From Phreatobacter sp. (GTDB taxonomy: Bacteria; Pseudomonadota; Alphaproteobacteria; Rhizobiales; Phreatobacteraceae): a stretch of 64,000 nucleotides of DNA. The notes beneath the pieces were generated by a model. That model was not told the DNA's origin. It ran no database searches and was given only the letters and a program-made list of their open reading frames with translations. Position 1 is the stretch's first letter; each line of letters begins with the position of its first letter. The position numbers and the translations under genes are program-made. The stretch covers positions 114,030 to 178,029 of the forward strand of contig NZ_JAPZTZ010000012.1 in NCBI RefSeq assembly GCF_027532945.1, in the 5' to 3' direction. This document shows positions 48,396 through 49,631 of the stretch, in pieces.

Positions 48396-48424
48396 CAAAA
48401 GGCCCGCGGAATGATCCACGGGCC
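48396..48424 (-). terminator. Terminator of the candidate sRNA
   Basis: On the complement, GGCCCGTGG-ATCATT-CCGCGGGCC and then TTTTGTTGT; one C-A mismatch in a 9-bp stem. It also serves as end point for any read-through from the 48570-49193 gene. Confidence 0.75.
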
Positions 48425-48508
48425 CGTGAAGTTTGGATATCGGCAGTCACCTAGTGGGGGCTGACTGCTTCGACCATGGGATGATGCTCATCCGGACAGC
48501 GCGCATCA
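48396..48508 (-). ncRNA. Candidate structured small RNA
   Basis: Complement of 48508-48396 holds three successive hairpins: GGATGA-GCA-TCATCC (48493-48479), GCAGTCA-N12-TGACTGC (48468-48443) with a C-rich loop (GCCCCCACTAGG), and the terminator stem GGCCCGTGG-ATCATT-CCGCGGGCC followed by TTTTG. A promoter-like pair lies just upstream. The predicted transcript is about 110 nt in the gap between eutC and a convergent hypothetical gene. C-rich loops of this kind base-pair with Shine-Dalgarno regions in several alphaproteobacterial sRNAs. The RNA family is not identified. Confidence 0.55.
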
Positions 48509-48514
48509 ACAGAA

Positions 48515-48544
48515 AGTATAAAACCGATCCGCGCACTTTGTCGC
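48515..48544 (-). promoter_or_regulatory. Promoter of the candidate sRNA
   Basis: On the complement, GCGACA and TATACT are separated by 18 bases; five of six -10 positions match consensus. The predicted start is near 48508. Confidence 0.45.
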
Positions 48545-48569
48545 ATCCGGCTAGACCCATGCGCGCCCC

Positions 48570-49193
48570 TCAGGGGAGCGCCTGAGATGCCGGGAGCGAA
48601 CTGGCAAGGGCGCGCCGATCCAGGAGAGTGCTGGCCTCTGCCGCCATGTTCACCATCATGCCCCGCATGTGATTGAGCACGACATCCCGATCGAGCTTCA
48701 TCAGGTCGGGGTGAATGGGAACAAGCGCGAAGATCTCGTCGAACGTCGCCTTGCAGATGTCCTGCGGTGCCTTGGGCTCCGCCAGCGCAGCGCGGCGAAG
48801 GCTCGTCTCGACCCCGTCTCCCTGTTCGCGCCACCAGTCCGGATCAACGCCGGCGGGGCACGGATAGCGGCTGAGGACATTGCGCCCGACTGCGACCAGC
48901 GCATCAAGCAGTGCCGGCTCCTGACCCACGGCGGCCCCGCGCAGATGGCCGTCGACGAGTTCGAGCACGTTGGACAGGCTCAACGGAAAGGCCCGCCACC
49001 GCCCCTCTTCGATGGCGTCCTTGAAGGACTGCTCGCGAAACAGTTTTTCCGCAAGAATTCCGGCCCGCGCACGGCTGTATTCATACATGGAGCGATTGAC
49101 GAGAAAGGCCGCCCGCGCGTCGACGAAGTCTTCGAGGCCTGACCATGACGCGACCGTCTTCTTGCGGCCGAGGATGGCGTCGAGCAGTCCCAT
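48570..49193 (-). CDS. Conserved-looking hypothetical protein
   Basis: 207 residues, soluble, mostly helical; family not recognised. It starts MGLLDAILGRKKTVASWSGL and contains a long helical region (FLVNRSMYEYSRARAGILAEKLFREQ), WRAFPLSLSNVLELVDGHLRG and YPCPAGVDPDWWREQGDGVE. Codon use is like its neighbours. A GGGGGAGAATGCC ribosome site precedes the ATG. It stands alone. Confidence 0.75.
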   Translation of the reverse strand: MGLLDAILGRKKTVASWSGLEDFVDARAAFLVNRSMYEYSRARAGILAEKLFREQSFKDAIEEGRWRAFPLSLSNVLELVDGHLRGAAVGQEPALLDALVAVGRNVLSRYPCPAGVDPDWWREQGDGVETSLRRAALAEPKAPQDICKATFDEIFALVPIHPDLMKLDRDVVLNHMRGMMVNMAAEASTLLDRRALASSLPASQALP

Positions 49194-49631
49194 GGCATTC
49201 TCCCCCTGTCGCGCCGACTATAGCAGCCGTCCCCGCCATGCGCACCGGACGCGGCCGACCACAGCCTTGAGCAGGCAAAATGACGCAGTCCGCGGCGTTT
49301 TGACGCTGCCGCAGACTCGGTCAATGCCCCCATGCGCTGCCATTCGCCGCAGCCTCATTCGACTTTCGTAGCATTGTGGGCGGTAAGTGGGCGTTTACCG
49401 TTTCCACCGTCGAGCGCCCGTCATTTTGCTTTGCATTTTTGTGCAGAGCAGCAATGTCGAGCGAAAACACTTGGTATGCCGCGCCCGTTCGCCAACTCAT
49501 CTTGGCCACGGGCGTATGGCGCTGCGTCGACAAACGTGCCGGAGAGCACGCCGTCGGGCGCTCGGGAGGTGAATCGCATGAGGCCGCCGTTCGGCGGTCG
49601 CAATGCCCGAGGGGCACAAGGAGGGTATAGC
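49194..49631. other. Upstream region of the symporter operon
   Basis: 438 bases between divergent genes. A lower-GC patch near 49420-49480 (CATTTTGCTTTGCATTTTTG) is the most likely promoter area, but I cannot define -35/-10 boxes. I see no gene in it; the track ORFs here are extensions of the DUF4212 frame or shadows. Confidence 0.5.

Follow-up and report, generated by a model that had tools for sequence, protein, structure and literature searches.

A candidate small RNA gene with a C-rich hairpin loop, confined to two species among the sampled congeners

Introduction

Does the minus strand between eutC and an adjoining hypothetical gene of Phreatobacter sp. encode a small RNA, and if so, of what kind and with which targets? 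An earlier note on this DNA had proposed a candidate small RNA with a promoter-like pair, three hairpins and a C-rich loop at positions 48396-48544 of the window, i.e., the whole 64-kb stretch of DNA that was analyzed. Letters and coordinates of this minus-strand interval were found to match that description. In the following, G000 denotes the genome holding the window and G006 denotes one congener, which serves as the main point of comparison. As described below, the candidate is well supported by sequence comparison as an independent sRNA gene on the minus strand.

Results

Transcription signals and predicted fold

A sigma70-like promoter (GCGACA - 18 nt - TATACT) lies at 48515..48544 of the minus strand, and an intrinsic terminator with a stem of about 11 bp, a loop of 4 and TTTT lies at 48397..48425 of the same strand, where the hairpin itself (48425-48400) is followed by TTTTGTTG. 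Both elements are rare by chance, as in a 600-nt region one promoter-like pair was seen where shuffles gave 0.1, and one terminator where shuffles gave 0.2. Moreover, when both strands of the window were scanned over their full length with stricter criteria, no other promoter had a terminator 50-250 nt after it on the same strand. The promoter and terminator that the earlier note had described are thus borne out. It should be noted that the U-tract is short (UUUUG). The sRNA would span about 112 nt (48396..48507, minus strand) when its start is placed 6-8 nt past the -10 box and its end at the T-tract. No ORF of its own was found, as claimed before; the long frames that cross the locus are out-of-phase and were listed mechanically.

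The predicted transcript (48507-48396) folds with -46 kcal/mol (z -3.3), better than all 200 of 200 dinucleotide shuffles, and its homologue in G006 also folds better than shuffles (z -4.2). Hairpin 2 (48439..48474, minus strand) in isolation reaches z -4.0. It has 11 bp in all, with GUCG/CGAU as the outer stem and GCAGUCA/UGACUGC as the inner one, separated by an AA bulge. Its 12-nt loop, GCCCCCACUAGG (48450..48461, minus strand), is the proposed base-pairing seed.

Of the three hairpins described earlier, hairpin 2 and the terminator hold, whereas hairpin 1 does not. Likewise, of the two stem-loops that had been called perfect, GCAGTCA/TGACTGC is the inner part of the 11-bp hairpin 2, while GGATGA-GCA-TCATCC (48479..48493, minus strand) is present as letters only, being unconserved in G006 and absent from the minimum-energy fold, in which GAUGC is paired with GCAUC. 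This stretch is probably the variable 5' segment of the transcript.

Conservation in a second species

A DNA search of 61 genomes revealed one homologue of the sRNA unit, in G006, where it sits after the same upstream hypothetical gene as in G000. The promoter-containing block (48547-48506, minus strand) is identical at 41 of 42 positions, the hairpin 2 core at 29 of 32 and the loop at 11 of 12, the single substitution giving GCUCCCACUAGG in G006 and the consensus GCYCCCACUAGG; the terminator is conserved as well. The -10 box of G006 (CATACT) is one base weaker than that of G000. As baselines for the same two genomes, the adjacent gene is 57% identical at its four-fold sites and the intergenic region upstream is 75% identical, while the spacer of about 28 nt between the promoter and hairpin 2 is scrambled. 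Such patchwork conservation argues for selection on the promoter and the hairpin, rather than for recent transfer.

All 11 pairs of hairpin 2 form in both genomes. The three variable pairs are all kept paired, twice by a compensatory double change (UA/CG) and once by a GU/GC change, whereas in register-shifted controls 5-68% of cells pair. In the covariation check that had been proposed for the GCAGTCA/TGACTGC hairpin, the two compensatory changes speak for pairing, but column shuffles score at least as high in 116 of 500 trials, as may be expected when two sequences carry little power. With n=2 sequences the covariation is thin, and it should be considered consistent with a conserved hairpin, not conclusive.

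Preservation of promoter, C-rich hairpin and terminator in a second species, next to different downstream neighbors, very probably makes this an sRNA gene of an ordinary kind. The central claim of the earlier note is thus well supported, while its reading as a whole is borne out in part. Judged on the letters, with a predicted promoter and terminator of its own and without a conserved ORF, the locus would be classed as a trans-encoded intergenic sRNA.

Neighboring genes and alternative explanations

The upstream hypothetical gene (48570..49193, minus strand; 207 aa, without a Pfam family) is the conserved neighbor. It is present in 6 of the 12 congeners, and a scan of the genome-contigs collection yielded no relatives of its protein. 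Upstream of this gene, at window positions 49278-49307, we observed an imperfect inverted repeat, CAAAATGACGC...GCGTTTTGAC, which is nearly unchanged in G006 and is a possible operator.

As the terminator lies about 145 nt past the stop codon of this gene on the same strand, and as the order of gene and sRNA is conserved in G006, the element could instead belong to the 3' UTR of the hypothetical gene, perhaps as a processed 3' fragment, with an incidental promoter match. The most conserved block of the locus is, however, the promoter, for which a pure 3' UTR would have no use, and no such element follows the orthologue in G001 (78% identity). The sRNA unit is absent after the stop of the 207-aa gene in G001, G010 and G004, and a pattern search of the G002 genome did not find it. 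We thus regard the 3' UTR explanation as unlikely, while still deserving some weight.

On the other side of the locus, eutC (PF05985; 47565..48341, plus strand) is convergent with the sRNA, with 55 nt between the two ends, and a region scan found no plus-strand terminator in between, such that the transcript could act in cis as an antisense RNA against the 3' end of the eutBC mRNA. The homologue in G006 has no adjoining eutC, and antisense action cannot therefore be the conserved role; we consider it very unlikely. The location between eutC and a hypothetical gene, as given in the earlier note, is thus true of G000, but eutC is not a conserved neighbor.

What lies beyond the terminator differs between the two genomes: convergent eutC and eutB (PF05985, PF06751) in G000, and a small secreted-protein gene (as read from its N-terminus) with a DAO-family oxidoreductase in G006. 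The sRNA unit is therefore not part of eutBC, lies outside ethanolamine utilisation and is not a leader. A cis-acting leader (attenuator or riboswitch) would likewise consist of a promoter, a conserved hairpin and a terminator, and in G006 the secreted-protein gene does come next on the same strand. In the window, however, the next gene is the convergent eutC, which leaves nothing to lead into, and the gene order of G000 already contradicts such a reading; no cis-regulatory family of Rfam was matched at gathering level. A leader is thus highly improbable. That the locus is a small peptide gene or a dual-function RNA is scarcely credible, as short ATG frames are present in G000 (e.g., MVEAVSPH*), but no small ORF is common to G006, where frames and starts differ.

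Distribution and family searches

Among the 12 congeners, the sRNA unit is present in only two, G000 and G006. Searches of these genomes with promoter-block and loop patterns allowing mismatches gave true matches only in this pair; the other matches in congeners that were inspected are coding, or lack the hairpin and the terminator. A covariance model of the hairpin was run against 398 genomes from the order and 385 from the class; beyond G000 and G006 it returned only weak matches, all inside long coding frames. The exact hairpin pattern was not found in the genome-contigs collection, nor did blastn reveal any match in plasmids.

The comparison with Rfam by Infernal, which the earlier note had suggested, placed the locus in none of the known families. 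At gathering score, Rfam 15 gave 0 matches in the whole window for any family, including rhizobial sRNAs, and at permissive thresholds nothing credible appeared. Weak cmscan matches to mmgR/suhB (RF00519) do span the whole model, with 16.0 bits in the window and 17.0 bits in G006, but these rest mainly on the terminator and fall short of the gathering score of 41 bits. A clear mmgR/suhB sRNA of 68 bits is found on another contig (G000:C6:231661-231737), which excludes filing the locus under mmgR, and most congeners (in fact, nearly all) carry one such full sRNA, with two strong copies in G006. Membership, even as a divergent mmgR/suhB (alpha-r8) sRNA, was thus dropped, as its probability is close to nil.

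Possible targets of the loop

The earlier note had regarded the C-rich loop as typical of sRNAs that target Shine-Dalgarno (SD) sequences. The loop is indeed C-rich, exposed and nearly unchanged in G006, and in this it resembles those of GsrN, AbcR and NfeR1. Pairing with G-rich ribosome-binding sites (RBSs) is the simplest hypothesis. We searched G000 and G006 for AGTGGGRG 3-11 nt before ATG, with the reversed pattern as a control. Matches fell below the control in both genomes (15 vs 21 in G000 and 11 vs 24 in G006), such that there is no enrichment. SD-targeting by the loop, as judged from this analysis, should thus be considered plausible but unproven.

The conserved loop (48450-48461) contains CTAG. 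For the extended reverse complement of the loop, CTAGTGGGRG, we counted 1 copy in G000 (reversed pattern, 36) and 2 copies in G006 (reversed pattern, 51); as the sole copy in G000 is the sRNA's own complement, there is no extended perfect target in that genome.

At clear gene starts, G000 and G006 have a single RBS match in common, AGUGGGGG. It precedes a tctB-like gene (tripartite tricarboxylate transporter), named from its sequence, whose 5' region reads AGUGGGGGAACG-AUG. In most congeners this RBS is of the GCGGGGG type. AGTGGGG is found in G000, G006 and, alone among the ten congeners that lack the sRNA, G002. Both carriers would be among the three AGTGGGG genomes by chance with a probability of 3/66, a value uncorrected for the post hoc choice of target, and the tctB-like RBS, picked after the fact from sequence matches, is thus a weak candidate target. 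As a separate observation, the 183 nt around the tctB-like start (on contigs G000:C5 and G006:C2) are 98% identical, vs 57% at four-fold sites of another gene, which points either to a recent exchange or to strong constraint on the 5' region.

A bolder proposal is that a newly arisen sRNA of a two-species lineage, with a fixed C-rich seed, would control organic-acid uptake via the tctB-like RBS, which would have gained AGUGGG in the same lineage. We consider this quite unlikely.

Discussion

Several characterized sRNAs provide a reference for the candidate. GsrN, the general-stress sRNA of Caulobacteraceae, has a C-rich loop as its most conserved part, which base-pairs with a G-tract in the leader of an mRNA; BLASTn finds its homologues in Caulobacteraceae only, and its promoter depends on sigmaEcfG (PMC5869019). 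The candidate resembles GsrN in being lineage-restricted and in having a 5' hairpin whose C-rich loop is conserved in both species, but its promoter is sigma70-like, and no GGAAC -35 element of sigmaEcfG was found in 48506-48571. mmgR/suhB (alpha-r8, RF00519) is a Rhizobiales sRNA in which a loop carries an anti-SD motif (PMC7143759) and, like the candidate, is short and built of a hairpin plus a terminator. AbcR1/2 (alpha-r15) and NfeR1 (alpha-r14) are trans-sRNAs of 110-120 nt that carry unpaired anti-SD motifs and act on transporter mRNAs as regulators (PMC8844928; PMC7143759); these have three stem-loops and CU-rich motifs, whereas the candidate has a single C-rich loop and no Rfam match. 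In PmaR of Agrobacterium, a stable stem presents a C-rich loop that is accessible (PMC6234868), as in the candidate, although PmaR is long and spoon-like and most of its target sites are predicted at some distance from the RBS.

Taken together, the locus is probably a stand-alone sRNA gene with a C-rich loop, which would most likely act in trans by pairing with G-rich mRNA stretches. In the mechanism that we propose, a sigma70-type promoter would drive a transcript of about 112 nt, consisting of a variable 5' segment, a conserved hairpin, a short linker and the intrinsic terminator. The hairpin would expose the C-rich 12-nt loop GCYCCCACUAGG, which may pair in trans with G-rich stretches, chiefly purine-rich RBSs (AGUGGGRG-like), and such pairing would block translation or change the stability of the target mRNAs.

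We conclude that the candidate sRNA gene is selectively maintained, young, restricted to a small lineage, probably trans-acting and of the known C-rich-loop kind. As the majority of rhizobial trans-sRNA families are limited to a single genus or family (PMC3927594), a new sRNA of narrow distribution is to be expected. The locus offers a compact case, an sRNA found in 2 of the 12 congeners beside a gene that sampled relatives keep without the downstream sRNA, and it is thus useful for the study of sRNA gene origin and marks a defined seed.
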